Source: Candidatus Zhuqueibacterota bacterium
GTDB taxonomy: Bacteria > SM23-31
DNA: 16,993 bases
Reading direction: 5' to 3'
NCBI GenBank assembly: GCA_022562855.1
Contig: JADFON010000004.1
Span: 1 to 16,993 of the forward strand
Position 1 is the first letter of the stretch. The number at the start of each line of letters is the position of its first letter. The translations under genes were made by a program, and so were the position numbers. Shown one piece after another: positions 1 through 16,993 of the stretch. The notes below the pieces were generated by a model. The model ran no database searches. It saw only the letters and a list, made by a program, of their open reading frames with translations, and was not told the origin of the DNA.

Positions 1-594
1 GCAATAAGCTCCTGCAATTTTACGGTTGAATATGATCATCTGGACCTATATCCCGGTATAAATCTTATTCCTTTTCCTTTTAATTTTTCAGAGTTTAAAT
101 ATCGGGGAAATCCCGGAAAATCACCGGTTATAATCGGGCATGCGCCTTCAAACCGGGCGAATAAGGGTTCCAAAGTTATTATCGATTCACTCAGAAGCCT
201 TCAGGAATCATATTCTTTTGAAGTGCAGATAATTGAAAACCTGCCGCATCAAAAAGCCCTTGAATTGAAAAGTAGATGCAATTTATTCATTGACCAGATC
301 AGCGCTATTGGATATGGAATAAACACCGTAGAGTCAATGGCGATGGAAATCCCTACATTTTCGAGTTTGACGAAAGAATTTAAAAAACGATGTCCTGATT
401 CGCCAATTATAGAAATTTCTGCAGAAAACATTAAGGATCAGCTAATTCCTTATATCAAGTCTCCTGAATTGCGAATAAAGCAAGGCGAAAAAAGCAAAAA
501 ATGGTCAATGATTAATCACGATTCCATTGCAGTAGTGAAAGAAATTCACCGTGTTATTTTTCAACATGCTCCGGCGCTTGATAAAAAAATGTAA
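1..594 (+). CDS. Glycosyltransferase, GT-B type (5'-partial)
   Basis: The frame is open from base 1, so the N-terminal half lies outside the window; 197 residues remain. They match the C-terminal, nucleotide-sugar-binding half of GT-B (GT1/GT4-like) glycosyltransferases. A 'GHAPSNR.NKGS' segment at residues 46-57 matches the start of that domain. 'LPHQKALELKSRCNLFIDQ' (81-99) matches the helix preceding the donor-site loop. 'GYGINTVESMAM' (104-115) carries the conserved donor-binding glutamate, E111. Proteins of this kind add sugars to lipopolysaccharide, capsule or other glycans on the cytoplasmic side of the membrane. The acceptor and sugar cannot be read from this fragment. An internal ATG at 223 exists but would discard conserved sequence, so it is not the start. 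No other sugar gene is visible nearby. The domain call is inferred from motifs; the exact family is uncertain. Confidence 0.8.
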   Translation, partial: AISSCNFTVEYDHLDLYPGINLIPFPFNFSEFKYRGNPGKSPVIIGHAPSNRANKGSKVIIDSLRSLQESYSFEVQIIENLPHQKALELKSRCNLFIDQISAIGYGINTVESMAMEIPTFSSLTKEFKKRCPDSPIIEISAENIKDQLIPYIKSPELRIKQGEKSKKWSMINHDSIAVVKEIHRVIFQHAPALDKKM

Positions 595-890
595 AAAAAA
601 TTGAACTTTTATTGTAAAAACCAGGTTTTTTATAAATGAATAAAGATAAAGTAATAAGTTTTCAATTTTTGGTTATAAGCGATTGAATCTTATTAGAACA
701 AAACTGTAGTTTTATTCGACATTGAAATTTCAGCAGTGAAAAATAATTTGCAATGATTTGCCCATGTGTAAAAACTATTACTCATTGAAGCGCAGAGGGA
801 CTGTCATTACGTTACGAGGGTTACCGGAAAATCGTTAAAACTTATTGAACATCGTAGTGTAAACAGGAAGATAAAATACTACTAATTAAT
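595..890. other. AT-rich intergenic region
   Basis: This 296-base gap between two + genes holds no convincing gene or RNA. A short inverted repeat at 700-713 (AAAAC, 4-base loop, GTTTT) followed by TTATT could be a weak terminator for the glycosyltransferase, but the stem has no G-C run. The promoter of the TPR gene should lie here; I cannot point to a convincing -35/-10 pair. Confidence 0.4.
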
Positions 891-2546
891 ATGATTTCAT
901 TTGTATTGAGTTTAATATTTATTCTGTTTTTGTCGACCGGTTTGACAGATCATTACTCCTCGTCTGCCGATTATTCATTTGAATTGTCGCGTCATTTTAC
1001 TTCGTCTCCGGCAAAAAACAACGGCACTGCATACATGCGTTTGCTTGTCGACAACCCAATCGAATTGCGCACGTTTGACATACCCGAAGTATCAGATAAA
1101 TTTAATGAGATGATGCTGAGCGGCATAATGTTAACCTACGAAAACGCGCCATACCTTGATAAATCCTTTGCAACATTTGATTCTCTCATTGTGATGAGAC
1201 CCGACCGACCGGAGGGGTATTTTCTCAAAGCTTCGCTTCTATTATCCATTTACCAGGTTGATAAAAACCAGGCAGTCTTTGACAGTTTGAAAGTTTATGC
1301 CGATAAAACTATTGGCATATCCAAGAAGCTTCTCGACGAGCAGCCGGATAATAAATTTCTTCATTTCTATCTGGGGGGTATCTACGGAAATATGGGACTT
1401 CAGTACCTCAGGCAGGGCAGTTACTGGAGTGCTTACAGAAACGGTTCGAAAGGTAAAGGACATCTTGAAAAAGCGCTAAAAATTGACCCTGAATTTGCAG
1501 ATGCCGAATTAGGAATTGGTATATTCAAATATTATGCGGATGTATTGCCGCGATACATGAAACCTTTGTTATTTCTCGTTAGACTGAGCGGAAACAGGGA
1601 AGAGGGGCTTTCGAAAATCAAACTTGCCGCAGAAAAAAGCGCTCTATCAAGGATTGAAGCAAATTTCTTTTATGCTAAAATATTACAGGAATACGAAGGG
1701 GACCCGGCAGGGGCTTTGGATGTGGGTTATCAACTTCATAACCAATTTCCAGACAACATGTTTTATCACTACTCCCTGGGGCAGTTCTTATATGAAAATG
1801 GAATGTTGCCCGAATCCCGTGAATTATTCGAGCAATTGAAAAAGCGTCCTCACCGGTATTATAATAGAAGCGTAGGATATTATTATGGCATAATCCTGCA
1901 TTCTATGGGAGAATACGAAAACTCTACAACCCAATTAATGGGTATTATAAGTTTATATCCGAATAACTACAAGGACAGACTGCGAGATATATATTTTCGA
2001 ATAGGCTTAAATTATGAATACCTGGAAGAACGTGAAAACGCTTTGCTGTATTATGTTCAAGCAAAAAATATCGGCTCAGATATTCATAAGGAGAAGTTAA
2101 AACAGCTTTTGAAAGCGCCTTTAACTCCTGAGGATATTAAAATTAAGAATGTTGACAGCCTGATTAAATCCAATTTGTTAAATAACGCACTAAGTGTTCT
2201 GAGAAAAAATCTCACAGAATTTACAGAAAACAGCAATGTTGACAAAAAATTTGAAGCCCTGTCTAATTTGCAATTAGCTGAAATTCACCTCTTGCAGGGC
2301 AATTACAACGATTCGAAGCGGTTTTTGGATGAAAACGGTGAAAAACTTTATAAATACAACAGAGAGTATTTGGCAAGATACCATACTGTCGGCGCCAGCG
2401 TTTACCTGGAATCGAATGAACGCGATAAGGTTCAAAAATATTTGAAAAAGCTCAATAAAATCGATTTCAAAAAAATACCTATTTTTTACAAACGGACTTA
2501 TAACATGCTGCAAAGAGAATATTACGGAGTAGTAAAAAACAGGTAA
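891..2546 (+). CDS. Secreted tetratricopeptide (TPR) repeat protein
   Basis: A 551-residue protein. A hydrophobic N-terminal segment (about residues 2-19) looks like a signal peptide or anchor, so export to the periplasm or outer envelope is inferred. The rest is helical TPR-like sequence. 'GGIYGNMGLQYLRQGSYWSA' lies at about residues 162-181, and 'HLEKALKIDPEFADAELGIG' is a classic TPR turn. Further repeats appear at 'EGDPAGALDVGYQLHNQFPD' and 'GEYENSTTQLMGIISLYPNN'. TPR arrays bind protein partners. No enzymatic motif is seen, so the role is unknown; large envelope TPR proteins are common in FCB-group bacteria. The ATG at 891 was chosen because it places the hydrophobic segment at the N-terminus. 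The nearest purine-rich stretch, AGGAAG at 865-870, is too far upstream to be a good ribosome binding site. Monocistronic as far as can be seen. Confidence 0.8.
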   Translation: MISFVLSLIFILFLSTGLTDHYSSSADYSFELSRHFTSSPAKNNGTAYMRLLVDNPIELRTFDIPEVSDKFNEMMLSGIMLTYENAPYLDKSFATFDSLIVMRPDRPEGYFLKASLLLSIYQVDKNQAVFDSLKVYADKTIGISKKLLDEQPDNKFLHFYLGGIYGNMGLQYLRQGSYWSAYRNGSKGKGHLEKALKIDPEFADAELGIGIFKYYADVLPRYMKPLLFLVRLSGNREEGLSKIKLAAEKSALSRIEANFFYAKILQEYEGDPAGALDVGYQLHNQFPDNMFYHYSLGQFLYENGMLPESRELFEQLKKRPHRYYNRSVGYYYGIILHSMGEYENSTTQLMGIISLYPNNYKDRLRDIYFRIGLNYEYLEERENALLYYVQAKNIGSDIHKEKLKQLLKAPLTPEDIKIKNVDSLIKSNLLNNALSVLRKNLTEFTENSNVDKKFEALSNLQLAEIHLLQGNYNDSKRFLDENGEKLYKYNREYLARYHTVGASVYLESNERDKVQKYLKKLNKIDFKKIPIFYKRTYNMLQREYYGVVKNR

Positions 2547-2649
2547 AGAAAATAACTTGCTTTTAAATAAATATTTTATAATATTTTAACCGGCTATTGA
2601 TTTCCCTCCTTATATCGTTCTCACATTTACTAAATAAAAGGTGTATATT

Positions 2650-2877
2650 ATGCCAATTCCTATTCAATTGCGATTTATCGGTACGGGTAAACCTTTACGG
2701 GCAAACATTAATCCCCGTTTGGAAAGAGAGGCAAGCCGTAAAGGTGTTGTATTTTCCGGCATAAAAACCAAACGGGAATTTAATAATGTGATTGGTGATT
2801 TAAAGCCAAGCGTGGAGGAGTTAGGAAACAAGGCAGTAAATATAGCAAGATCTTCCGGTATCGATCTTTCTGCATAG
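2650..2877 (+). CDS. Small basic hypothetical protein (75 aa)
   Basis: I do not recognise this protein. The start is set at the ATG at 2650, because AAAGGTG (2637-2643) gives a good ribosome binding site seven bases upstream. An in-frame GTG at 2641 sits inside that site. The 75 residues begin 'MPIPIQLRFIGTGKPLRANI', rich in beta-formers and basic residues. The C-terminal half ('FNNVIGDLKPSVEELGNKAV') looks like an amphipathic helix. No signal peptide, membrane segment, cysteine pair or zinc motif is present. It stands alone: 94-103 bases separate it from the TPR gene, and it converges on the cyanophycinase-like gene. The good ribosome binding site and balanced composition argue it is real; function unknown. 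Confidence 0.55.
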   Translation: MPIPIQLRFIGTGKPLRANINPRLEREASRKGVVFSGIKTKREFNNVIGDLKPSVEELGNKAVNIARSSGIDLSA

Positions 2878-3072
2878 AAAACTCCTTATCAAAGATGAAG
2901 TTTGGAATTTTTTGCCCAGGGTTTTCCCATAAGATTGAATTATATCATAAATCCGGATAATCTGTATAGATAATAATGCAAAATCTGAAAATTACCAATA
3001 TCTTCTATCTTTCCTCGAAATCACCTCTCCTTAGACTATCTTGTTCATTAAGAGTAATCTAAAATAATCATT

Positions 3073-3984
3073 CTATTTTCCGGGATTGCCGAATGAAGTG
3101 TCCTGCTTAGCTCGATTTATGAGACTGCGTGTTTTGATATTATATTTATCCCCCGGACTCAGTATCTGAATATTTGCAGTCGTATCTCCAAATGCAATAG
3201 GTTTCATAGCGTCATGAATTGCGACTTTATTGCGTCCTATTACTTCGAATTCATCCCCATTCACGACGATTGCAGTCGCTTCAGAAATACCGATACCCAG
3301 TAACTCCGGATAAACTTTTATTATGTCATATAAATCGGTCCATCTATTTCGCCTGTCGATATGCTGATCGATCGCAGAATTTTTCAAGAAGGAAAATCCA
3401 ATCCTGTGGGTGGAATCAGGGGCGATCATAATCGCGTTGTCCGCCACTGCGCCTCGTGCCAAAAACGAACCCTGGATTGTGGCTCCTGCCGAAGAACCGC
3501 CGATAACACCACCTCTTTCAAGAACTTTGTGGAATTCATCGTATGTAAGCGTGTTGAGATATGAGTCAACGATATTCCATTGTCTGCCTCCATTAAACCA
3601 GACGCCTGTCGCTTCTTTGAGGTCTTTTATAAATTCCTCGGTATCTGCTTCTGCGGGATCGCTGGTATGAAGCATTTTAACATTTTTCACATTTCTTCTA
3701 TTTTTCCATGCCCGGGTAACGACTGAATCCTGATAGACCCGGAGTTCGCCATTTTGGCGTCTGTTGCCGCCTGCAGTAGGGATGACAATTATCCTCGCTT
3801 CTTCCGGACCGCCGGCTAACTCGATAAATCTTTCATACAAATCCTCAGTCGCTGCTCCTCCGACAATAAAAAGAGTACCTGTTGCGGGTCCGAACTCCGG
3901 CGTTTCGTTTTGCGGAATGCCCGAACATGCCGTAATGATCGAAAAAATTGCGCAAACGATTGAAATTTTCAAGTGACAACGCAT
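3073..3984 (-). CDS. Cyanophycinase-like lipoprotein (peptidase S51 family)
   Basis: A 303-residue exported peptidase-like protein. The N-terminus ends in a lipobox, I17-T18-A19-C20, so it should be lipid-anchored in the envelope. The body matches cyanophycinase and other S51 serine peptidases, which cleave Asp-rich dipeptides or cyanophycin-type polymers. The nucleophile motif GGSSAGA (162-168) has S165 as the likely catalytic serine. 'DQHIDRRNR' (206-214) carries the conserved histidine H208. The 'GIGISEATA' block (230-238) normally reads GIGIDE; here a serine replaces the aspartate while E235 is kept. GGAGGGG a few bases upstream of the ATG supports the start. It lies 35 nt after the metalloprotease on the same strand, so co-transcription is likely. 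Cyanophycin itself is not implied: exported homologues in non-cyanobacteria more probably trim peptides. Family call is confident, substrate is not. Confidence 0.85.
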   Translation of the reverse strand: MRCHLKISIVCAIFSIITACSGIPQNETPEFGPATGTLFIVGGAATEDLYERFIELAGGPEEARIIVIPTAGGNRRQNGELRVYQDSVVTRAWKNRRNVKNVKMLHTSDPAEADTEEFIKDLKEATGVWFNGGRQWNIVDSYLNTLTYDEFHKVLERGGVIGGSSAGATIQGSFLARGAVADNAIMIAPDSTHRIGFSFLKNSAIDQHIDRRNRWTDLYDIIKVYPELLGIGISEATAIVVNGDEFEVIGRNKVAIHDAMKPIAFGDTTANIQILSPGDKYNIKTRSLINRAKQDTSFGNPGK

Positions 3985-4019
3985 TATCCCCTCCGAATTA
4001 ATATACGTTATTTCAGGAT

Positions 4020-6497
4020 TTAGAAATTTTTCATAAATAATTCAAAGCTGCATCCATAGTCAAACATGCTTAGTCCCGACATCCCGATTGGCGAACCTGC
4101 CGGAGCGGCAATTGAAGAAGAAGTAGTGTAACTGTCCGGATTTTTTTGAAATTTATCAATCTCCGAAATACTATAGAAGTAATGTGATTTTTGTTTTTCT
4201 TCGAGCACAGCGCTCATTTGACTATCCAGCCAGTTTTTCAGGTCTTCTATTTTTAATGAGGTCGTTGCTCTTGTTTGAGTGGACGCCTGCCTGTTAGCCG
4301 CCAAATTCATTAATCTGTGCAAAACGGTTGTTTCTACAACGCGTTGTGTTGCAGCATAATAGTCGGAACCGTAACCGGATTTCCATGTAGTGTTAATCAA
4401 TCGGTCAATAACTTCTCCAAGTCCGGGATTTGAATTGTCGCGGGCATTGTATTCAATGAGCCTTGCAGCTCTTTGGGAGTTCAAAATCATAGTTATTGTC
4501 ATATTCGCAGCCGTTTCTGCCGCAGTGAAGGGGTCAAATGTGGATCCCGTTCTGCCTGAAAATAATTCCGGTGTTTGCCCATAACTCGGGGGACGGGGAG
4601 GAATAAGATTCAGAATTCTTTCATCCAGTGCGAGAACGGCTGGGTCGATCGTTTTCAACAGCATGTCAAGGGCTTCATATTGTTTTGCCGCAGGAACAAT
4701 TGCAATAGTTTCCTGACCGTCTCCGCGCAATGTGTAAAAATAATTAGCGCCTCCCAATACCTTAGCTGCAGCCTCGATCTGGTATCTATGCAGCAAGTAT
4801 ATCGGTACGAGCACGTCTTCAAGAGTTGACATTGGCGCTCCGGGACGAATATTATTCTCAGAAAAATTTTCCAGGGCTTTCTGACGAATGTCCATAGTTC
4901 TTTCTAATTCCTGAACAGCATCAGCGCCGTTGTCCCAAAGATGTGTGTAAGGATGAGCGCTTCCTTGTGACCGTGCATCCTGGTCGGTGATAAATATATT
5001 GCCGATCTGCATTGCGTCGGTCAATATTTTGTTCAATTCAGTTTTTTTGTCGGTTCCATCCGGAAAATCCTGGTAACCCCAGGTTATCGCAATTTTATCC
5101 CAATCGCCGATTCCCGTATCGTACGCATCCGACAAATCAAAATCTCCGTTATCGTCAATTTTTATCAATGGGTGCGGATAATCCATTACGCTTGCCCTGT
5201 TATTCACACTTGCAATGTAATTGTGACCCAAGCCAAGAGTGTGACCTACCTCATGAGCAGATAACTGTCTGACACGGGCTAATGCCATTTCCTCCATTTC
5301 CGGGGGGATACGGTCTCCGTCTCCGTAGGGTGAAAGCAATCCTTCAGCAATCAGAAAATCTTGACGTACCCGCAACGAACCAAGACTTACATGTCCTTTG
5401 ATTATTTCACCGGTACGAGGGTCGGTTACTGAACTTCCATAAGACCATCCTCTTGTAGATCGGTGTACCCAATTTATGACATTATATCTCAAGTCCATTG
5501 GGTCTGCGTCTTCCGGGAGTACCCTAACCTGGAAAGCGTTAATATATCCAGCTGCTTCAAACGCCTGGTTCCACCAGCTTGCCCCCTCGATAAGCGCCGA
5601 TCTGATAGGTTCGGGTGTTCCTGAATCGACATAATAAACGATAGGTTCGACCGCTTCACTTCTTGCTGCGGAAGGATTTCTTTTTTTCAAACGGTGTCTC
5701 CGGGCAATTCGTTTAAGAATCGGCTGATCGATTGGGGTCGCAAAGTCCATGTACCTACCGCCGGACACTCCGGATCTCGGGTCATAGTCCCGAACTTCAA
5801 AACCACTACCTGGCAATTGCACGAACGAATAATGCTGACGGATAGTAACCGCAGAAGCATCGGGTGTTACGCTTCTTACAATATTTCCACCGTTTTCACT
5901 GGTAAAAGTTAAAATTACTTCAAATTCAGTATTGAGAGGGAAATTCTTTGTTCGTGGAAGGTATAACGCCGACCTTGATGTGTCCAGTTTGTATGTCCCC
6001 TGGTTGGATCTTCTAAGAGTACTAATCACACCATGACCATCACGAATTAAAAATGGCGTAGCATCAATTAAAACACTGCCGCCTTCTTCTGCCTCGACCT
6101 TGAATCCCCATATCACAGACTGGGCAAAAGCGTCTTCAACCGCTTTGCGTTCAGAAGCTTTATCCGATAAAGCGCGGTAATTGTAATTTGGCTGAACCAA
6201 TAACACTTTTGGACCGATTCTTTGGAATTTTACAATCTTGGAACTCCCTAATTTTCCCCGGTCGAGTCCTATATCGTTGGAACCGAGACCCGCGGGGAGA
6301 GAGTTGACCACTAAGAACTCTTTTTCGAATTCTTTAATTTCGATCCAGATTTTACCTTCTAATTCATCCCAATAATAGGTAAAAAATCCCTCATGTGCCT
6401 CCATGCCGGCGGTTTTTTCCGCGATAGTATTAACTTGTGCAAATCCTGAGGTAACCACCATAAGAAGACAAACGGATATTGTGCTGAAAATATTCAT
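4020..6497 (-). CDS. Secreted zinc-dependent metalloprotease (DUF5118/DUF5117/DUF4953 type)
   Basis: An 825-residue exported metallopeptidase with a signal peptide at about 1-20 (ending SGFA). Residues about 25-270 form the beta-rich region typical of DUF5118/DUF5117 proteins. The catalytic part carries the metzincin zinc motif HEVGHTLGLGH (415-425): H415, H419 and H425 as zinc ligands and E416 as general base. A Met-turn, 'SVMDYP' with M438, follows shortly after. The helical C-terminal third is characteristic of this family (DUF4953-like). It should hydrolyse proteins in the periplasm or outside the cell. AGGAGGT, upstream of the ATG at 6497, is a strong ribosome binding site. A cyanophycinase-like lipoprotein follows 35 nt later, suggesting a peptide-degradation operon. 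Length and motifs look complete; the substrate cannot be told. Confidence 0.9.
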   Translation of the reverse strand: MNIFSTISVCLLMVVTSGFAQVNTIAEKTAGMEAHEGFFTYYWDELEGKIWIEIKEFEKEFLVVNSLPAGLGSNDIGLDRGKLGSSKIVKFQRIGPKVLLVQPNYNYRALSDKASERKAVEDAFAQSVIWGFKVEAEEGGSVLIDATPFLIRDGHGVISTLRRSNQGTYKLDTSRSALYLPRTKNFPLNTEFEVILTFTSENGGNIVRSVTPDASAVTIRQHYSFVQLPGSGFEVRDYDPRSGVSGGRYMDFATPIDQPILKRIARRHRLKKRNPSAARSEAVEPIVYYVDSGTPEPIRSALIEGASWWNQAFEAAGYINAFQVRVLPEDADPMDLRYNVINWVHRSTRGWSYGSSVTDPRTGEIIKGHVSLGSLRVRQDFLIAEGLLSPYGDGDRIPPEMEEMALARVRQLSAHEVGHTLGLGHNYIASVNNRASVMDYPHPLIKIDDNGDFDLSDAYDTGIGDWDKIAITWGYQDFPDGTDKKTELNKILTDAMQIGNIFITDQDARSQGSAHPYTHLWDNGADAVQELERTMDIRQKALENFSENNIRPGAPMSTLEDVLVPIYLLHRYQIEAAAKVLGGANYFYTLRGDGQETIAIVPAAKQYEALDMLLKTIDPAVLALDERILNLIPPRPPSYGQTPELFSGRTGSTFDPFTAAETAANMTITMILNSQRAARLIEYNARDNSNPGLGEVIDRLINTTWKSGYGSDYYAATQRVVETTVLHRLMNLAANRQASTQTRATTSLKIEDLKNWLDSQMSAVLEEKQKSHYFYSISEIDKFQKNPDSYTTSSSIAAPAGSPIGMSGLSMFDYGCSFELFMKNF

Positions 6498-6556
6498 GTT
6501 TTACCTCCTGAAAGCAAATATTTTGGTTTAGGTGCTGTTAGATATTTAATTTATGA

Positions 6557-6566
6557 ATGACGTCAT
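6557..6566. promoter_or_regulatory. Perfect 10-bp palindrome upstream of the metalloprotease
   Basis: ATGACGTCAT is a perfect palindrome in the 145-base gap between the ammonia-lyase-like gene and the metalloprotease gene, about 60 bases before the metalloprotease start codon. Position and symmetry would suit a dimeric regulator. A single 10-mer can arise by chance, and no second copy was noticed in the window. Confidence 0.2.
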
Positions 6567-6642
6567 AATTCTTTATGGATATTGGGATTCGATTTAACAG
6601 AGAGATGTTCTTTTTTATTGAAACGAGAAATTAGGATAGACC

Positions 6643-7623
6643 TTAGTTTTTCTCCCATTTATTCAATATTTCGCAGAATTTCTCGCGAGTTATGTTTCCT
6701 CCCGAAAGTAAGAGAACGACGGTTTTCCCCCTTAACATGTCCGCATATCTAAAGGCTGCTGCAGTGGAGGCGGCTCCAGCCCCTTCGGCAATATTATGGG
6801 TTGAATCGAACAACCGGACAATAGCCTGTTCTAATTCATTTTCGCTGACAAGTACAACATCATCAATGACATTTTGCATTATTTTAAACGGAAATTCAAA
6901 TGGAACCCTCGTAGCAAGACCGTCTGCAAAAGTATTTGCAGAAGGGTGAGTGAGCATTTTTCCCGCGTGATACGAATTGTGTACGGCAGGGGCATTCTCC
7001 GCCTGGACCGCAATAACTTTAATTTTTGGGTTCAGAGATTTAAGCACAATAGCATTCGAACAACAGGAACTTCCCCCACCAACAGGACTTATTAACAAAT
7101 CAATTTCGGGAAGGTCTTCAAAAATTTCAAGCCCTAATGTGCCCACCCCATGCAACAGATAAGGTTCATTCGCGGGGTGAACAAGAACCAATCCATCCAT
7201 TTCTGCCCGTTCTTCACATGCTTCACGAGCCTCATCGAAGTCTTTTCCAGTCAGAACAACTTCTGCTCCAAGATTTTGCATTGATTTTGTTTTGTCGGGA
7301 TTATTATTTTCCGGAGCGTAAATTATAGATTTGACGCCAAATGTCCGGGCGGCAAATGCAATCGACTGACCATGATTTCCGGTTGAAGGTGTAATTACCC
7401 CGGTCGCTTTCTCTTTTTCCGTAAGATGGCTTATTCTTACAAGCCCACCGCGAACTTTGAATACATTAATAGGCTGGTGGTTTTCAAATTTAATATAAAT
7501 TTTAGCGCCAATTTCATCGCTAAACTGCTTGTTGAAAAAAAGAGGAGTGGGTTTGAGATAACGGTATACAATATTTCTGGCGTTATAAAAATCACTAAGA
7601 ACCGGCAGTTTCATACGTAACAT
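6643..7623 (-). CDS. PLP-dependent threonine/serine ammonia-lyase-like enzyme
   Basis: A 326-residue cytoplasmic fold-type II PLP enzyme, close in length to serine racemases and catabolic threonine dehydratases (about 320). K56 in 'NVFKVRGG' is the expected Schiff-base lysine. 'STGNHGQS' (80-87) is the substrate-binding loop, 'GGGSSC' (182-187) sits at the phosphate-binding glycine loop, and 'SGGN' (307-310) lies near the pyridine nitrogen. No C-terminal ACT regulatory domain is present, so a catabolic, non-feedback-inhibited enzyme is inferred, deaminating serine, threonine or a related hydroxy-amino acid. Two motifs are unusual: asparagine-valine before the FK (usually GS or GA), and SSCC in the glycine loop. 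The substrate is therefore open. The ATG at 7623 has no clear ribosome binding site; the ATG at 7614 is an alternative. It precedes the protease gene by 145 nt on the same strand. Confidence 0.82.
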   Translation of the reverse strand: MLRMKLPVLSDFYNARNIVYRYLKPTPLFFNKQFSDEIGAKIYIKFENHQPINVFKVRGGLVRISHLTEKEKATGVITPSTGNHGQSIAFAARTFGVKSIIYAPENNNPDKTKSMQNLGAEVVLTGKDFDEAREACEERAEMDGLVLVHPANEPYLLHGVGTLGLEIFEDLPEIDLLISPVGGGSSCCSNAIVLKSLNPKIKVIAVQAENAPAVHNSYHAGKMLTHPSANTFADGLATRVPFEFPFKIMQNVIDDVVLVSENELEQAIVRLFDSTHNIAEGAGAASTAAAFRYADMLRGKTVVLLLSGGNITREKFCEILNKWEKN

Positions 7624-7649
7624 CCGATCAAATATTAGAGGGATAAGCT

Positions 7650-7748
7650 ATGGGAATGCCTGACAAGCTGGTAAAAATTAAAAAGCAATATACTAAAAAG
7701 AATAGAAATATGTTAAGCATTATATTCAAAACACCGGTATTCCTGTAA
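7650..7748 (+). CDS. Possible short ORF (32 aa) in frame with the downstream gene
   Basis: An ATG at 7650 has a GAGGG ribosome binding site (7638-7642) seven bases upstream. It opens a 32-codon, lysine-rich frame beginning MGMPDKLVKIKKQYTKKN and ending in TAA at 7746-7748. The frame is the same as that of the large GH2-Yip1 gene, so one stop codon separates the two. It could be a leader peptide, the true N-terminus of the large protein cut by a nonsense mutation, or chance. Only 26 bases separate it from the divergent gene start at 7623, leaving little room for a promoter. Low confidence as a gene. Confidence 0.25.
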   Translation: MGMPDKLVKIKKQYTKKNRNMLSIIFKTPVFL

Positions 7749-7847
7749 AAAACTTTTTCTTTGATTTTACCTGCCGTAATTGTTACATTTATATATTACC
7801 TTTCTCAAACGGGAAGCAACGTAAATAAAGCACCATATATTGTTGTT

Positions 7848-10487
7848 ATGCAAACATTCTATACATTATTTGTACTTTTTGCGGTATTTTTCAATTCGAT
7901 GATAACCGTAGACGCCGGGCAGTCTAATATTACTGCTTTGATTAATGCCGAGTATAAAAATGTACCTGAAGAATCAAGTGTGTTTTCTGTTGGTGAATTC
8001 AGAAAAACAATAGATCTCAATGGCGAATGGGAAATTAAAATAGGCGATAATGAAACCTGGCACAAAATACATATTCCCAGTTCACTGAATTACAAAGAAA
8101 AGCTGCATTTCAGGAAGAGTTTTCACATTCCGTCTGATGCTGTGAACTATCATTCTAATTTAATTGCACTCGGGATAAATTACAGCAGCGCTATAAAACT
8201 GAACGGTACGTATATCGGGTCACATTCAGCAGGTAATACAAGTTTTTCTATAGATATTCTAGATCGCATTTTAAAGCCCGGACAAGACAACCTTATAGAA
8301 ATCGAAATTGACAAATTGACAAATTCTGAAGCTTCCGATCTTTTAAGACCACAGCCGTGGAGTTGGAAACATTACACCGGTATCGTACGGGAAATATATA
8401 TTCAACTGCTCCCTAAGATATCATTGACAGATTGGAATATGAGTTATAATTTCAAGAATAATTTAAGCGACTGTGAAACAGTCTTTACTTTTACATTCCA
8501 AAATTTTAATCAAATTTCAGACAGAAACGCGCTTGGTGCCAGCACTAATATTCGTCAAGAAAATATACAAGAATTTGGTTACTTTGTAGAAATATACAAT
8601 TTGGATTCCGGTAAATTAGTTAAAGACAATAGGGCTAATCCGAAATTTATAAATATACACCAAACTGTGCAGGATACTATGTTGCTGGAATTTAAAGATG
8701 TTGAATTATGGTCGCCTGAAAATCCTGTTCTTTACCAACTAAGAATTACATTAATAAGGCAAAATAATATTCAAATTGACAACTTTCGCTCTCAATTCGG
8801 GTTCAGGGAGATTAAGGTAGATAATAATGGATTTACTCTCAATGGTTTACCTGTAATGCTTAAGGGAGTGTACCGTGTTGAGCAGCATCCTGATTATGGT
8901 ATTTCGATACCCTGGAGCAAACAATTGGAGGATTTGCGCTTAATCAAAGACCTCGGTTTGAACATAGTCAGATCTGGTCCCTATCCAAATCATCCCTATT
9001 TTTATGAATTGTGTGACCAACTGGGCATAATGGTACTGGAAGAAATTCCGGTATCTCAAATTCCTGGACATTTTATAGCTAAACAAAAAAACATTGACTA
9101 CTCTACAGCCATTTTGCAAGAAATGATTAATCGCGACAGGCATCATCCATCTATAATAGGATGGGGACTGGGTTCAAACTTGGATGTATCGAGTGCAGGA
9201 ACCGCTCTCTATTTGACTAACTTAGCGGAGACGGCGCGTGAAATCGATAATAGGCTCCTGTATTATTCATCAGAAATTGTAGAAAAAGATATATGTGTTG
9301 ATATTACAGATTTCAAATTAACCGATTTTTACAGTCCGGATATCGAATTTTTAAAAAATCTTCTTACTTATATTCGAAACGATTTACCGGATAAACCTCT
9401 TTTCATTGGAAGAATCGGTTCAGTCGTAAATCCCGGTATTGGAGGAGAGGGGTATCTCAATCCGAATTCACTTGAACACCAGGCTAAATACGTCAGCGAT
9501 TTATACAATTTAGCCAATGAAGAGGAAGATATTCATGGAATCATTTTCTGGAGTTTTGCCGATTGGGAGGGAGATATTCCGTTACTATCCTCGGGTCCAA
9601 CGCCTGATAACACATTGTACAGGCGCGGATTGCTTACAGAAAACCGGGAGCATAGGTTGGCTTATCAAAATTTACGTGCAACGATATTGAACAATAATTA
9701 TTCTACTCTTTCTTCAGGAAACCCATTTGAAAATTCACAAGAAAATTTTATTTACGTTGGGTTTCTCATTATTATAATATTAATAGGGGCGCTTAAGCAA
9801 CATAGGTGGTTTGGTCAAAATTTTCGCAGATCATTACTATTTCCGAAAATATTTTTCGAAGATATACTTGAAAAAAGAAATATGCAAAACTGGCAAACCA
9901 ATTTGCTTAGTCTTGTGATTTCCTCGGGATTAGCCCTGGGGATCGCAAGCCTCTGCTTCTATTATAAGCAAAATATCTACTTTGATTTAATCATAACGCA
10001 ATTTTTCTTACCGGTGATGTTGAAAAATATTGTAATTTATCTAATCTGGCATCCCTTATTAAATATCATTTTCATAACTTTGTTAATATTTTTAAGTATT
10101 GTTTTTATAGCGGTTATACATAATCTTATATTTCTTTTTTTGGGGGCTGGAGGGGGATTGACAAAATCTTTTAATGTAATCGTCTGGTCGGGAAGTAATT
10201 TAGTGTTCGTTCTTTTATTTATGATACCATTCTATTCTGCCTTACAAAATAGTGCGACACTGCCGGTGTATGCTGTGATTGCGGTGATTTTTCTTTTATG
10301 GTATATCAACAGATTTATATTAGCTCTAAAGGTTACGTATCAAACAAATTTTAAATTGTCATTAATCAGCTATATAGCTATCATTATAGTTTTAACGGGT
10401 GGTTTCAATTATTTTTTCCAATACAAGTATCAATCTTTTACTTACACAAAAATGTACTTGAATTCAATTAACTCTCAACTCAAATGA
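7848..10487 (+). CDS. GH2-like protein with altered catalytic residues fused to a Yip1-like membrane domain
   Basis: From the ATG at 7848 the protein is 879 residues. That start places a signal-like hydrophobic segment first (MQTFYTLFVLFAVFFN). A TTG at 7761 would add 29 residues. Residues about 50-190 form the sugar-binding beta-sandwich of glycoside hydrolase family 2. An immunoglobulin-like domain follows, then a TIM barrel from about 322 with 'GVYRVEQHPDYG', 'RDRHHPSIIGWGL' and 'IIFWSFADW'. Where active GH2 enzymes have the acid/base in W-x-x-x-N-E, this protein has W-G-L-G-S-N (Asn codon at 9177-9179). Where they have T-E-Y-G with the nucleophile, it has G-R-I-G (Arg codon at 9411-9413). 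Beta-glycosidase activity is therefore doubtful. The last 230 residues hold about six or seven membrane segments resembling a Yip1 domain. It ends 6 nt before smc, so the two are probably co-transcribed. Domain calls are motif-based; the role is unknown. Confidence 0.8.
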   Translation: MQTFYTLFVLFAVFFNSMITVDAGQSNITALINAEYKNVPEESSVFSVGEFRKTIDLNGEWEIKIGDNETWHKIHIPSSLNYKEKLHFRKSFHIPSDAVNYHSNLIALGINYSSAIKLNGTYIGSHSAGNTSFSIDILDRILKPGQDNLIEIEIDKLTNSEASDLLRPQPWSWKHYTGIVREIYIQLLPKISLTDWNMSYNFKNNLSDCETVFTFTFQNFNQISDRNALGASTNIRQENIQEFGYFVEIYNLDSGKLVKDNRANPKFINIHQTVQDTMLLEFKDVELWSPENPVLYQLRITLIRQNNIQIDNFRSQFGFREIKVDNNGFTLNGLPVMLKGVYRVEQHPDYGISIPWSKQLEDLRLIKDLGLNIVRSGPYPNHPYFYELCDQLGIMVLEEIPVSQIPGHFIAKQKNIDYSTAILQEMINRDRHHPSIIGWGLGSNLDVSSAGTALYLTNLAETAREIDNRLLYYSSEIVEKDICVDITDFKLTDFYSPDIEFLKNLLTYIRNDLPDKPLFIGRIGSVVNPGIGGEGYLNPNSLEHQAKYVSDLYNLANEEEDIHGIIFWSFADWEGDIPLLSSGPTPDNTLYRRGLLTENREHRLAYQNLRATILNNNYSTLSSGNPFENSQENFIYVGFLIIIILIGALKQHRWFGQNFRRSLLFPKIFFEDILEKRNMQNWQTNLLSLVISSGLALGIASLCFYYKQNIYFDLIITQFFLPVMLKNIVIYLIWHPLLNIIFITLLIFLSIVFIAVIHNLIFLFLGAGGGLTKSFNVIVWSGSNLVFVLLFMIPFYSALQNSATLPVYAVIAVIFLLWYINRFILALKVTYQTNFKLSLISYIAIIIVLTGGFNYFFQYKYQSFTYTKMYLNSINSQLK

Positions 10488-10493
10488 AACGGT

Positions 10494-13400
10494 ATGTATT
10501 TATCTAGTGTAGAATTGACCGGTTTTAAATCATTTGCTCATAAAACAAAGCTTATGTTTCATGAGGGTATCACTGCCATTGTCGGTCCAAATGGTTGTGG
10601 AAAAACCAATATTGTTGACTCAATACGTTGGGTTCTCGGTGAGCAAAGATCATCCGTGTTGCGTAGTGATAAAATGGAAAATGTTATCTTTGGCGGCACG
10701 ATGAACAGACGCAGACTCGGATTTGCCGAAGTTTCCCTGGTAATTGAAAACACGAAAAATATTTTGCCGAGTGATTATTCTGAAATAATGATCACTCGGC
10801 GTCTTTACCGTTCCGGTGAAAGCGATTATTTACTAAATAAACAGATTTGCAGATTAAAAGATATATCGAACCTGCTCATGGATAGCGGGATGAGCGCAGA
10901 CGCCTACTCAGTAATAGAGTTGAGCATGATTGAATTGCTCCTCAACGATAAAGATGACTACCGGAAAAAACTATTTGAGGAAGCCGCGGGCATAACAAAA
11001 TATAAAGCCAAAAGGCAGGAAGCGTTACGTAAACTCGAAGCAACAAAAAAGGATGTTGTTAGAGTAAAAGATATAATTATTGAAATTGAAAGGAATGTCA
11101 ATTCTTTAAGAAACCAGGTGAATCGCGCTTCAAGATATGAAAGAATGAAAACGGAATTAGTCGAAGTTGAAAAACAGTATTACAACTGCAAGCGCGTTGA
11201 ATTAATGGATAGAAAGGTTCCTCTTGAAAGAGAAATTAAGGAAATCTCTAATCGTCTTACGGCGTTATCCGGGAAATCGGTTAAGAATAAGGCTGTAATA
11301 GAAAAAACGCAAAACGAAATCCTTGAAAAACAAGATAAACTTGCAAATGCTCAGGACAAATTGAATAAATTCACAGAACTTGTAAGGTCAACTGACAGCA
11401 ATCTTGCAAAATTACAGGAAAGATTTTCGTCACTCAATGAAACAAAAACACGCCTTTTGTCTGAAAAATTTCGCTTAGAAGTGAAGTTAAAAGAGCATCA
11501 TGGCAGGATCAAACATACAAAAAAAGAACTTGACGAAATAAAATTGAAATTTCAATACGCAGAAGTTTCGTTCAAGAAAAGCGATGAAGAACGCGAAATA
11601 TTTCTAAAAAATTATAGAAAAGGTAAGGCAGTTATCGCCGAAAAAAGTCAAAGCGCTATTGACATAATAAAAGAACTGGAAGCATCGATCCGGGAAAAAG
11701 ATACTGTTGAAAGAGACATCCGTGAAAAAACAAGTCATATAGAGGAACTATATGAAAAGATCAAAGATGCCTCAGAAAAACTTGACGGTCTCCGGGAAAA
11801 AAGTTCTATGTTGAAAAAGGATGTAGAGTCCTTAACATCAAAAGAAAATCTTTTGAAAAGTAACATCCAAAAAGAAAAGGAATTATTAGACAAGTCTGAA
11901 GTGGAGATAAGAATACTTGAAAGCAGACAAAACAATTTAAATATTTCTCTTGAATCCCAGCGTACCAAACATGATTTTTTGGTGAATCTGACCGAAGAAT
12001 ATGAGGGTATGCCAGGTGGGATTGTAGAGGTGTTACGAGCTAAAAGCAAACTCCAGGGTATTCTTGGTACAGTTGGAGAGCTGATTGACGTTCCCGCGAA
12101 ATACACAAAAGCTGTTGAAGCCTCATTAGGCGAACAAGCATATTATGTTGTGGTTGACAAATACGAGAATGTATTATCTGCAATTAATTATTTGCAGAAA
12201 TCTCAGGCAGGGGGGGTAACATTTTTAGCAATTGACAGAATCCAGGCAATGAAAAATAAACCGGGCTTTGACGGAAAGAAAAAAGGGAGAAACGAGCATA
12301 ATGGATTTTCTCCGTTAATAGAGAAAATTTCCTTTCAGAATGAGTATGATTCCCTTTACACCGTTCTAATCGGAGACGTATTGTTTTCTGAAAACGGAGA
12401 TGTTTCCTGGAAAAATGAGTATTCAAATTTGCCAGATAATAGATTTGTCGATTCAAAAGGAAATATTTTAACCGGCGGATCGATTTTTACTAAAATCGGT
12501 CCGAACAATGATGATTCGACAAGTATTATTGGGAGAAAAGAGCGTATTGCAGAAATTGAAAAAAACATAAAAAATCTTTCCAAAGATTTAGATAAAATAG
12601 CCGTAACGATCAGAAATCAGAATAATTCGAAAACCGAATCAAAAGAATTGCTTAGTCCTTTACAGTTGGGCGACCTGAACTTGTGGAATCGGGTCGTCCT
12701 CGCCCCCTTGACACGCGCTAGAGCAGGCGCGGAACGAATGCCGAATGAATTGATGGCCGAATACTACTCTCAAAGATCGTCGGCAGGTCTTCTCATTTCA
12801 GAGGCGACTGTTATTTCCAAACAAGGCATAGGTTGGATCAATACGCCGGGAATTTACTCCGATGAGCAGGCTGAAGCTTGGAAAAAAATTACTGGCGCGG
12901 TCCATGACAAGGGATCAAAGATATTTCTGCAACTTTGGCATTGCGGTAGAGCCTCGCACAGCGCTTTTCATGATGGCAAACCCACCGTGGCTCCCTCAGC
13001 GGTAAAACTAAATGGTGAATACATACATACTCCACTTGGAAAGAAAGGTTATGAAACTCCACGGGCGCTTAATACCGATGAAATTCCTGAAATTATAGAG
13101 GACTATAAAAAAGCCGCCAGCCGAGCCAAAGAAGCAGGGTTCGATGGCGTAGAGATTCATGGCGCTAATGGGTACCTTATAGATCAATTCCTCCAGTCGA
13201 AAACGAATAAACGGACTGATCGTTATGGGGGAAATCTGGAAAACCGGTTTCGGTTTCTTCAAGAAATAGTAAATGTGGTCACTGAAATCTGGCCAGCAAA
13301 TAGAGTCAGTGTTCGATTGAGTCCGAATGGAAATTTCAACAATATGGGTTCTGAAGATTACCGGGAAACTTTTACCTACATTGCCAGCCAACTCGACAAG

Positions 13401-13727
13401 ATAGGCCTAGCTTTTCTGCATGTTGTTGACGGCCTCGCGCTTGGTTTCCATGAGCTTGGAGACCCTATGAAATTAAGCGAATTTCGCCAGGTTTTTTCGG
13501 GTCCGGTTATGGGAAATTGTGGATATACGCAAGAGACGGCGGAGATGGCGATCAAAGCAAAAGAAGCGGACCTGATAGCGTTTGGGCGGCCTTTTATCAG
13601 CAATCCAGATCTTGTGGAACGGTTTCGTAATGGCTGGTCATTGGCTAACGACGCAGATATGGGTTCATGGTATTCATTTGAAAAGGAAGGATACACTGAT
13701 TTTACCTTTTATAACAATGTGTCGTAA
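10494..13727 (+). CDS. smc: Chimeric reading frame: N-terminal SMC joined to Old Yellow Enzyme
   Basis: One open frame of 1,077 codons encodes parts of two unrelated proteins. Residues 1 to about 716 are chromosome-segregation ATPase SMC: Walker A 'GPNGCGKTN' at 31-39, 'FEEAAGITKY' at 161-170, a coiled coil from about 170 to 500, the hinge at about 503-665 (including 'GMPGGIVEVL'), and the start of the returning coil. The 'YSVIEL..M' segment (138-145) replaces the usual IGQG and is the FCB-group form. Normal SMC runs to roughly 1,150-1,200 residues. Here the second coil and the C-terminal head, with signature motif and Walker B, are missing, so this half could not form a working ATPase. From about 718 the sequence is a whole OYE. 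The ATG at 10494 is 6 nt after the GH2-Yip1 stop; no strong ribosome binding site is seen, so translational coupling is likely. The frame is directly visible; that it makes one functional protein is doubtful. Confidence 0.85.
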   Translation: MYLSSVELTGFKSFAHKTKLMFHEGITAIVGPNGCGKTNIVDSIRWVLGEQRSSVLRSDKMENVIFGGTMNRRRLGFAEVSLVIENTKNILPSDYSEIMITRRLYRSGESDYLLNKQICRLKDISNLLMDSGMSADAYSVIELSMIELLLNDKDDYRKKLFEEAAGITKYKAKRQEALRKLEATKKDVVRVKDIIIEIERNVNSLRNQVNRASRYERMKTELVEVEKQYYNCKRVELMDRKVPLEREIKEISNRLTALSGKSVKNKAVIEKTQNEILEKQDKLANAQDKLNKFTELVRSTDSNLAKLQERFSSLNETKTRLLSEKFRLEVKLKEHHGRIKHTKKELDEIKLKFQYAEVSFKKSDEEREIFLKNYRKGKAVIAEKSQSAIDIIKELEASIREKDTVERDIREKTSHIEELYEKIKDASEKLDGLREKSSMLKKDVESLTSKENLLKSNIQKEKELLDKSEVEIRILESRQNNLNISLESQRTKHDFLVNLTEEYEGMPGGIVEVLRAKSKLQGILGTVGELIDVPAKYTKAVEASLGEQAYYVVVDKYENVLSAINYLQKSQAGGVTFLAIDRIQAMKNKPGFDGKKKGRNEHNGFSPLIEKISFQNEYDSLYTVLIGDVLFSENGDVSWKNEYSNLPDNRFVDSKGNILTGGSIFTKIGPNNDDSTSIIGRKERIAEIEKNIKNLSKDLDKIAVTIRNQNNSKTESKELLSPLQLGDLNLWNRVVLAPLTRARAGAERMPNELMAEYYSQRSSAGLLISEATVISKQGIGWINTPGIYSDEQAEAWKKITGAVHDKGSKIFLQLWHCGRASHSAFHDGKPTVAPSAVKLNGEYIHTPLGKKGYETPRALNTDEIPEIIEDYKKAASRAKEAGFDGVEIHGANGYLIDQFLQSKTNKRTDRYGGNLENRFRFLQEIVNVVTEIWPANRVSVRLSPNGNFNNMGSEDYRETFTYIASQLDKIGLAFLHVVDGLALGFHELGDPMKLSEFRQVFSGPVMGNCGYTQETAEMAIKAKEADLIAFGRPFISNPDLVERFRNGWSLANDADMGSWYSFEKEGYTDFTFYNNVS
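12630..12660. other. SMC/OYE junction (likely chimera or recombination breakpoint)
   Basis: SMC-like coiled-coil sequence ends within 'NNSKTESKE' (residues 710-718), and OYE similarity starts at 'LLSPLQLGDLNL' (719-730). GC is 14/60 in 12541-12600, 21/60 in 12601-12660 and 36/60 in 12661-12720. No repeat, transposon end or integrase lies nearby. 'SKELLS' could belong to either parent protein, so the exact breakpoint may sit in a short stretch of shared sequence. Confidence 0.7.
12648..13727 (+). other. Old Yellow Enzyme / NemA-like ene-reductase module
   Basis: About 360 residues, the normal length of the family, homologous to FMN-dependent OYE proteins such as N-ethylmaleimide reductase. 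These use NAD(P)H to reduce activated C=C bonds or nitro groups in the cytoplasm. Visible in fusion numbering: 'APLTRARA' with FMN-contacting T740; 'QLWHCGR' (813-819); the substrate-anchoring H889 and N892 in 'IHGANGYL', with Y894 as the likely proton donor; 'FGRPFISNPDL' (1030-1040) at the phosphate-binding loop. A TTG at 12648 (residue 719) could serve as its own start but has only a weak purine-rich leader; more likely its native start codon lies beyond the breakpoint. Composition matches the following genes, not smc. It heads a run of + genes ending with an SDR, which suggests a shared redox role. Confidence 0.85.
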
Positions 13728-13827
13728 ATATTAGAAAGTTTTCGAGTTTGCTGGATGGACTCCAAAATTGAACGCTGGAATTAGATCGTGAAATAATTGG
13801 AACACACTATCATGAGTGAGGTAACGC

Positions 13828-14243
13828 ATGTTCAAGATAATAAATGGATTTAACAAAGGTCTTCTCGCCATGGCAAAACCCTGGCAGGCATGGATGGTCC
13901 TGCTTGTAACGGTAAACATGGTATCGCCTTTTTTTTTCTGGAAAAACCGGAAGCGATAGTGGCGCTGGCCGGATTCTTTACCAGCTTTTTCATCATGTTA
14001 AGCCTGTTTGCCAGGTTTGGATTTATGAGGCTTCTCGGTCTCGGCCATATTCCATGGCTATTCACCGTCCCCTGGCTGTATTTACAATTAGGCCAGGCTG
14101 TAGATGGAAGCCCATTTTATTATTGGCTTCTTGCAGTAATCGTTGTCGACAGCATTTCATTGGCAATTGACGCGGTGGATGTCGCCCGCTATTGGATGGG
14201 TGAACGGCAACCCACTTTTCCCGAAAAAATTAATGCTTATTAA
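13828..14243 (+). CDS. Small multi-pass membrane protein, frameshifted at a T9 run
   Basis: The gene is broken in this sequence. The ATG at 13828, with GAGG six bases upstream, starts 'MFKIINGFNKGLLAMAKPWQ' and a first hydrophobic helix ('WMVLLVTVNMV'), then stops soon after nine T at 13929-13937. The next frame carries on directly from the T run with 'LEKPEAIVALAGFF' and runs to 14243. One extra T would join the two into a 138-residue protein with about four membrane helices. Downstream landmarks are 'FARFGFMRLLGLGHIPWLF' and 'SLAIDAVDVARYWMGER'. A start at 13890 would yield 117 residues but begins with out-of-frame, non-hydrophobic sequence, so I regard it as spurious. A sequencing or assembly homopolymer error is the simplest cause; a true mutation or slippage is possible. 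Function unknown; it sits between the OYE and DUF5069 genes. Confidence 0.7.
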
Positions 14244-14282
14244 ATTTCCACCAATGTTTAACGATTTATAAGGAGATAGATC

Positions 14283-14720
14283 ATGAATGTTATAGAGAAA
14301 GTTGAGTCGTTGGATTTGAATACTGCGGTTCCCCGGAGTTCGAGGGAAACGATGGCAGGCATTGCCCATCTTCCGCGCATGATCGACAAAGCGCGTTCAT
14401 ATCAAAACAGCACTCTTGGCGAATATATTTATCCATGCCCGCTAGACCACATTATTTTACGGCATCTGGAAGTTAACCCGGAAGATTTTGCAGAACTGGC
14501 CAAGTTGAACGACGATGAGCAATTGAGCGTATGGACTAGCGCGGCCACCCGGGGCCGAAGCCGTAAAGAGCTGGACCTTGTCAACGGGAAAATCTTAAAC
14601 CGAAAAGTGGACCCTGATGACATGCCTTATTTCCTGAAAGCGCGAAACCAGATTGCCCCAACCCGAACCGATGTTACGACCTGGGACGATCTAATAAATT
14701 TGGAGGAAGGACATATTTAA
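14283..14720 (+). CDS. DUF5069 domain protein
   Basis: A 145-residue soluble protein. The N-terminal half has conserved blocks I associate with DUF5069: 'PRSSRETMAGIAHLPRMIDK' (17-36) and 'GEYIYPCPLD' (46-55). No signal peptide or membrane helix is seen. The function of the family is not established; the invariant basic and cysteine-containing motifs suggest a ligand- or cofactor-binding pocket, which is speculation. AAGGAGAT, just before the ATG at 14283, is a strong ribosome binding site and nearly the same as the one before the next gene. The gene lies 39 nt after the membrane protein and 52 nt before the SDR, on the same strand, so it is probably part of one operon with the OYE module. 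Confidence 0.82.
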   Translation: MNVIEKVESLDLNTAVPRSSRETMAGIAHLPRMIDKARSYQNSTLGEYIYPCPLDHIILRHLEVNPEDFAELAKLNDDEQLSVWTSAATRGRSRKELDLVNGKILNRKVDPDDMPYFLKARNQIAPTRTDVTTWDDLINLEEGHI

Positions 14721-14772
14721 TGAAATCTTTCCCTATCAAAACAACTTTAATTGAATAAAAGGAGATCAAATA

Positions 14773-15540
14773 ATGAACACTCAAAATCAACCGCTAGCCC
14801 TGATCGTTGGAGGCTCCTCTGGAATGGGAAAAGGGTCTGCAAAACGTCTTCTGAACCGTGGGGTAGAGGTCATCCTGCTGTCACGCAATGCGGATAAGTT
14901 GAAAAAAACTAAAGCTGAATTGGATGCGCATGGAGAGGTTCAAACCTTTGCGGCAGACCTTCACGACCCAGAGCAGGTCGGCAATTTCATCAACCGCATC
15001 AAGGAAGAAAAAAGGCATATCAAGTATCTGGTAAACGCCGCTGGTGTTTTCAAACCAACTCCATTTTTGGACCACACCGCACAAGACTATGACAAGTACC
15101 TGGGATTGAATAAAAGCATCTTCTTCATCACCCAGGCGGTGGCCGAGAATATGAAACGAAACGGCGGCGGATCGATCGTCAACATCGGGTCCATGTGGGC
15201 CAAACAGGCAATCAAGGCTACGCCTTCCTCGGCGTACTCCATGGCCAAGGCTGGCCTGCATGCGTTGACACAGCATCTGGCTATGGAACTTGGAGACTAC
15301 AACATCCGTGTAAATGCCGTTTCTCCCGCAGTGGTGCATACGCCTATTTATGGCGAGTTTATTGACCCTGCCAATATTGAAGAGACACTTTCTAAATTTA
15401 ACAGTTTCCATCCTATCGGGCGCATTGGCCAAGTTGAGGACATTGTGCCCGTTATCGATATGCTTCTCTCAGATAACTCCAGTTGGGTCACCGGAGCGAT
15501 CTGGGATGTTGATGGCGGAGTGATGGCTGGCAGAAATTAA
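14773..15540 (+). CDS. Short-chain dehydrogenase/reductase (SDR)
   Basis: A 255-residue classical SDR of normal length, expected to be a cytoplasmic NAD(P)(H)-dependent oxidoreductase. The Rossmann cofactor motif reads G13-G14-SS-G17-M-G19 with glycine in place of the usual initial threonine. R38 in 'LLSRN' after beta-2 hints at NADPH preference. 'NAAG' (88-91) follows. The catalytic set is N113, S140, Y155 and K159 ('YSMAK'). The gap between S140 and Y155 is a few residues longer than in FabG-type enzymes. '[11 protein letters not shown]' near the C-terminus is the standard SDR end motif. AAGGAGATC precedes the ATG. It is the last gene of the apparent operon and is followed by a strong terminator. 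Acting with the OYE on an unsaturated carbonyl compound is plausible, but the substrate is unknown. Confidence 0.9.
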
Positions 15541-15578
15541 TAATAGAGCGAAGCAAATAAAAATATCCCAACCTATCT

Positions 15579-15594
15579 CGAAAATTAATTTTCG
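15579..15594. repeat. 16-bp perfect palindrome
   Basis: CGAAAATTAATTTTCG is self-complementary over all 16 bases and lies 38 bases after the SDR stop codon. It could fold as a weak hairpin in RNA, but the AT centre leaves no proper loop. It could equally be a protein-binding site or chance. The gene's main terminator is the stronger hairpin further downstream. Confidence 0.35.
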
Positions 15595-15673
15595 CGCAAC
15601 ATAAATTCTAACCCGGAAAAACTGGCAGGGTTGATGCTTTAGACAGTCTAATTATTGGGAAAATTACTGGGTC

Positions 15674-15710
15674 AATAACTCCTGCAAGCGCCTGCAGGAG
15701 TTATTTATTA
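15674..15710. terminator. Bidirectional rho-independent terminator
   Basis: AATAACTCCTGCA (15674-15686) and its exact complement TGCAGGAGTTATT (15693-15705) form a perfect 13-bp stem around the 6-base loop AGCGCC. A T-rich stretch follows on the + side, but on the minus side only the stem's own AATAA/TTATT end serves. It lies between the convergent SDR gene (+) and glyQ (-), the expected place for a terminator serving both. The rest of 15541-15796 holds no gene I can support. Confidence 0.85.
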
Positions 15711-15796
15711 TACTGACATCAAAATTTCAAAACGCTTTGCGCCGCAATTATTATTTATTTGGGTAGTGAAGAGAGTTATCTATGCCAGTATCAGCG

Positions 15797-16678
15797 CTAT
15801 TTGCCACTGCCAGTTGGGAGTAAAGGATATCCCATGGCTTCTCTTTGCCGAAGGTAGCCTTCGGCGCAGAGCCGGGACAGTTTGCGCACGCGGCCAATGA
15901 ACCCGGTGCGTTCCGTGACGCTGATGGCGCCGCGGGCGTCGAGCATGTTGAAGGCGTGCGAACATTTTAGCGTGTAGTCGTAGGCGGGGAGTATCAGTTC
16001 CTTCTCTATCAGGACCAGCGCCTCAGCTTCGTACATGTCGAACCATTGGGACAGTCGAGCCTTGTCCGATTCCTCGAAGTTGTAGCGGGAAAATTGTTTT
16101 TCCGTTTCCAGATGCACGTCGCCGTATTTGATTTCGTCATTCCATTGCAGGTCGTATACGTTGTCGACGTCCTGCAGGTACATGGTGATGCGCTCGAGTC
16201 CGTAGGTCAATTCCACTGGGATAGGCGACAGGTCGATGCCGCCGACTTGCTGGAAATAAGTGAACTGGGTGATCTCCATGCCGTCGAGCCACACCTCCCA
16301 GCCCAATCCCCAGGCGCCGAGAGTGGGCGACTCCCAGTCGTCTTCCACAAAGCGGATGTCGTGTTTCAGCGGGTCGATGCCAAGCGCCCGGAGACTGTCC
16401 AGGTACTGGTCCTGCACATCCTCCGGCGACGGTTTGAGGATCACCTGAAACTGATAATAATGTTGCAGGCGATTCGGGTTCTCGCCGTAGCGGCCGTCGG
16501 TGGGGCGGCGCGACGGCTCGACGTAAGCCGCGCGATAAGGCTCCGGACCCAGCACGCGGAAGAAGGTGGCCGGATTGAACGTGCCGGCGCCCGACTCGAT
16601 GTCGTACGGCTGGTGGAGGACGCAGGCGCGTGATCCCCAATACTCGTTTAAATTTAAAATCACATCCTGAAAATTCAT
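15797..16678 (-). CDS. glyQ: Glycyl-tRNA synthetase alpha subunit
   Basis: A 293-residue protein matching the alpha subunit of bacterial alpha2beta2 glycyl-tRNA synthetase, which charges tRNA-Gly with glycine in the cytoplasm. It carries the class II catalytic core. Near-invariant stretches include '[18 protein letters not shown]' (31-48), '[17 protein letters not shown]' (63-79), '[20 protein letters not shown]' from about residue 113, and '[11 protein letters not shown]'. Length is normal, and the ATG at 16678 opens directly on the conserved '[15 protein letters not shown]'. The beta subunit gene glyS usually follows glyQ at once. Here it does not: after the stop come the terminator and a convergent SDR gene. 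GC is far higher than in the first 12 kb (44/60 at 16501-16560). Identification is very secure. Confidence 0.97.
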
Positions 16679-16739
16679 AACGGCAAGTATTTAACAGGCA
16701 ATTTCACGCCCTGTCAATTTTCTTAATATAGGTCTGATT

Positions 16740-16993
16740 TTATTTCTTATTGAGGGCTTCGAGGTCGAACTTTTCAATCAGCGCGTCCAGTTTGGTATTG
16801 AAGGCTTCGGATTGAATCATCTCGGCGCCCCACTCGCTACCAATGAGGCCGGCTTCCTGGCTGATGGCGGGCATTTTCTGCTTCCACTCCCGCCAGAACG
16901 GCGTCTCAAACATTTCGATTAGGCGGCGGACCGTCTCGTGCGACATGTGTTTGTCGTATACCGGGATGACGCGCTCGATCAGCGTGGCCATAT
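16740..16993 (-). CDS. DUF2059 family protein, C-terminal part
   Basis: The last 80 or so residues of a gene that runs off the right edge. The sequence 'LIERVIPVYDKHMSHETVRR' and 'MFETPFWREWKQKMPAI' followed by 'GSEWG' is the typical C-terminal helix set of DUF2059. This family of mostly exported, alpha-helical bacterial proteins has no settled function. The ATG near the window edge (16991) is more likely an internal methionine than the start, because the family normally has about 60-80 residues and a signal peptide ahead of this point. It lies 61 bases upstream of glyQ on the same strand, so co-transcription is possible. High GC matches glyQ. Confidence 0.75.
   Translation of the reverse strand, partial: MATLIERVIPVYDKHMSHETVRRLIEMFETPFWREWKQKMPAISQEAGLIGSEWGAEMIQSEAFNTKLDALIEKFDLEALNKK

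Follow-up and report, generated by a model that had tools for sequence, protein, structure and literature searches.

The window analysed here, a stretch of 16,993 nucleotides, is one contig (JADFON010000004.1; hereafter C296) of a draft genome of Candidatus Zhuqueibacterota bacterium that comprises 2.51 Mb in 491 contigs and is 79.6% complete. It carries an open frame of 1077 residues on the forward strand (10494-13727), in which SMC residues 1 to ~716 are followed by an Old Yellow Enzyme (OYE), with Pfam domains SMC_N at residues 2-146, SMC hinge at 521-634 and Oxidored_FMN at 719-1047. This single frame and its domain matches bear out the in-frame SMC-OYE arrangement that had been described in an earlier, sequence-only reading of this DNA. 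The features of the window are collected in Table 1.

Table 1. Features of the window on either side of the join.
Feature	Position	Strand	Remark	Basis
Met-zincin metallopeptidase (-), PALP-family enzyme (-), GH2-type glycosidase (+)	4020..10487	-, -, +	Native left arm	Synteny with G001
Truncated smc 5' part (head N-half, coiled coil, hinge, start of returning coil)	10494..12635	+		Pfam/NCBIfam; SMC of relatives
Overlap with C198 bases 1-189	12455..12643	+		94% identity, 11 mismatches
Chimeric junction (almost certain), A-rich stretch gaaaaccgaatcaaaag	12629..12645		Exact base not assignable	Limits of C198 and Nitrospinota similarity
OYE, NemA-like NADH:flavin oxidoreductase, 5' end missing	12645..13727	+	Nitrospinota origin (almost certain)	84% amino acid, 79% nucleotide identity
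117-aa membrane-protein-like ORF, DUF5069 protein, SDR oxidoreductase	13890..15540	+	Right arm	Pfam
glyQ (glycyl-tRNA synthetase alpha subunit) and partial DUF2059 gene running off the contig end	15797..16993	-	Right arm	

The frame shares the N-terminal head half, the coiled coil and the hinge with bacterial SMC (TIGR02168, SMC_prok_B), but its alignment to that profile covers only residues 2-721 and stops at position 717 of the 1181 in the profile, with a score of 520.3 bits, below the cut-off of 567.35. The two head halves that this family holds in one chain are therefore not both present in the window frame, and the C-terminal head is found instead on a different contig, C198. The sequence-only reading had given 716 SMC residues cut just after the hinge; the first figure agrees with our analysis, whereas the cut lies ~80 residues beyond the hinge, within the returning coiled coil. 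The Oxidored_FMN domain (PF00724), as in OYE/N-ethylmaleimide reductases of the PRK10605 type, is near-complete (profile positions 2-338 of 342, E 3.8e-86). Unlike those proteins, the window copy lacks its first few codons, and its lineage is that of Nitrospinota rather than that of the SMC half. In Nitrospinota OYE homologues, a Met and about nine residues precede the L-L-S (or similar) that aligns with the window, in which the start codon and these first codons are absent, so the OYE is not quite the full-length enzyme that had been claimed.

The left arm and the missing half of smc

The proteins encoded upstream of smc (metallopeptidase, PALP and GH2) are 69%, 78% and 55% identical, respectively, to those of a genome of the same family (G001), where the genes lie in the same order adjoining an intact smc and the run metallopeptidase-PALP-GH2-SMC-STAS-like is uninterrupted on one contig stretch. 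The stretch fetched from a second family relative (G002) likewise holds PALP-GH2-SMC-STAS in one run. The draft genome contains the same run split in two, metallopeptidase to SMC-N on C296 and SMC-C with STAS on C198. The intact SMC frames of these relatives are 1163 aa (G001) and 1200 aa (G002) long, and the window SMC is 45-46% identical to them, whereas its identity to Nitrospinota SMC is only 27-30% across nearly the whole length (38% in one partial match); we rejected Nitrospinota ownership of the whole window on these values. The GH2-type glycosidase (7761-10487), which is also encoded immediately before smc in G001 and G002, has a hydrophobic C-terminal region after the GH2 domain and a weak Yip1 match at residues 691-878 that is under the curated cut-off.

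Searching the draft genome with the chimeric protein gave two matching places, the window itself and bases 2-193 of C198. The latter contig starts part-way through smc, and its 548 encoded residues include the LSGGEK and DEVDAPLDDAN motifs of the C-terminal head, so the continuation of the left arm is present elsewhere in the assembly. The smc 3' half, a search for which in the same assembly had been proposed in the sequence-only reading, was thus located at the very start of C198 with an overlap of 189 bases, and loss of the native smc was rejected as an account of the truncation. Because the overlap differs by 6%, being 94% and not 100% identical, C198 may stand for a near (sister) strain, and strictly it is no proof of an intact smc in the window's own strain; a strain difference may also lie behind the assembly break at smc. 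The mismatches cluster before the join, with eight of the 11 in the last 46 bases (12598-12643) and three in the preceding 143.

Composition and affinity of the right arm

G+C rises from 14 to 21 to 36 of 60 bases over 12541-12600, 12601-12660 and 12661-12720, exactly the step that had been reported previously. A 4-mer model, trained on other contigs of the draft genome versus Nitrospinota stretches and used to score blocks of 500 bases, gave a log-likelihood above zero in every block from 1 to 12500 and below zero in every block from 12501 to the end. The comparison of tetranucleotide profiles on both sides that had been called for therefore changes sign at the join, together with the G+C step. 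Five of the 12 sampled contigs of the draft genome (G000) were read as N (GC 0.0) and so gave no training data, and the blocks used for training were scored with the same model; we take the sign change as only supportive.

Among GTDB species genomes, the closest relatives of the OYE are in eight MAGs (76-84% identity), seven of which are titled Nitrospina/Nitrospinota or similar and one Nitrospirae; the next matches are cyanobacterial, the best outside those eight being at 71%. The highest value is to a protein of an uncultured Nitrospina sp. (84%). All eight of these genomes also match the right arm at the DNA level, in several stretches each and starting as early as 12645, with identities of 70-79% for the OYE gene and 69-79% for glyQ, the latter being matched in every one of the eight. 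Further DNA matches fall in the 117-aa ORF region (G032, G034 and G035), the SDR gene and the DUF2059 gene, not each gene in each genome, and the DUF5069 gene has a short weak match to G034 around 14362-14440 (E 7e-5). At the protein level, GlyQ is 82-85% identical to that of seven Nitrospinota-group genomes and the SDR 71% identical to that of one (G034). In the Nitrospinota genomes the right-arm genes are scattered over different contigs or widely spaced, and their order is unconserved. The two arms thus have different nearest relatives, G001 and G002 on the left and Nitrospinota on the right.

The glyQ gene offers a further cross-check. GlyQ was found in none of five genomes of the same class (G001-G005), the draft genome has a dimeric-type glycyl-tRNA synthetase on contig C51 that scores above the curated cut-off, and GlyS was looked for in the draft genome and not found; for these reasons, the lone glyQ of the window is most likely foreign to the lineage of the draft genome. 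Within the right arm, GC3 goes from 0.55 (SDR) to 0.74-0.77 (GlyQ, DUF2059), and the best DNA match shifts from G031 (OYE) to G038 (GlyQ). A second join at 15541-15800 is possible on these sequence grounds, or the shift could reflect ordinary variation within a single Nitrospinota genome.

Origin of the SMC-OYE frame

Since the missing half of smc lies on another contig and Nitrospina-type DNA lies to the right of the join, the SMC-OYE frame is best read as an assembly error. We regard it as almost certain that C296 arose as an inter-species assembly chimera rather than by gene fusion, with bases ~12,645-16,993 deriving from at least one co-occurring Nitrospinota bacterium. The sequence-only reading had left a choice between two organisms merged in assembly and an smc destroyed by a real rearrangement; the former is favoured by the smc 3' half on C198 and the Nitrospinota-like right arm, and the latter is not supported. 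C296 bases 1 to ~12,635 would belong to the organism of the draft genome, the assembly of which would have broken inside smc at the place where C198 differs by 6%, presumably through strain variation. A short A-rich stretch would then have linked the broken end to the 5' end of a Nitrospinota OYE gene. Similarity to C198 stops at 12643 and Nitrospinota DNA similarity begins at ~12645, and the stretch gaaaaccgaatcaaaag (12629-12645) resembles both C198 and the A-rich starts of Nitrospinota OYE genes, which makes it a plausible short bridge for the erroneous join. This A-rich similarity may also explain why the break falls near the OYE start. The open frame across the join would be accidental, and the SMC-OYE protein would not be expected to exist. 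The coincidence of a retained frame with the OYE N-terminus had been raised as an argument against a random chimera, but it carries little weight: a frame is kept by chance one time in three and needs no special explanation, and the boundary is inexact because the start codon has been lost.

Real recombination, in which one strain had its smc truncated by an insertion of 4.3 kb or more of Nitrospinota DNA and others, represented by C198, kept theirs intact, would accommodate the continuous reading of the contig and the 6% difference in the C198 overlap, which allows that two strains may coexist. We consider it very improbable, however, as the family relatives have an unbroken smc, the foreign DNA continues up to the contig end and host sequence does not resume, the segment carries a glyQ that the lineage does not use, the ORFs of the window near the join include no mobile-element gene, and the OYE start codon has been lost. 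The composite ATPase of SMC requires the C-terminal head, and a functional SMC-OYE fusion protein, despite its single open frame, is so improbable as to be negligible, since the head is absent and no composite ATPase could form, relatives show no such fusion but intact SMC frames, and the Nitrospina OYE at L044 is a stand-alone ORF of 365 aa. A true gene fusion was likewise rejected, SMC and OYE being separate genes in the relatives of each half.

Chimeric contigs were reported to make up 1-2.2% of contigs in one benchmark of metagenome assemblies (PMC7329831), and in simulated viromes usually below 2.5%, and under 5% of large contigs (PMC5610896). C296, attributed above to an assembly chimera, likewise is one contig from two distinct genomes and differs from the published inter-genomic cases only in that its join happens to retain an open frame; it belongs to a known class of error and holds nothing biologically novel. 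Its significance is for data quality only: ~4.35 kb of Nitrospinota DNA sits on a contig of the draft genome, for which a split at ~12,640 is appropriate. If left in place, the glyQ on C296 would wrongly imply that this lineage uses the tetrameric glycyl-tRNA synthetase, and protein databases would take in a spurious SMC-OYE fusion.
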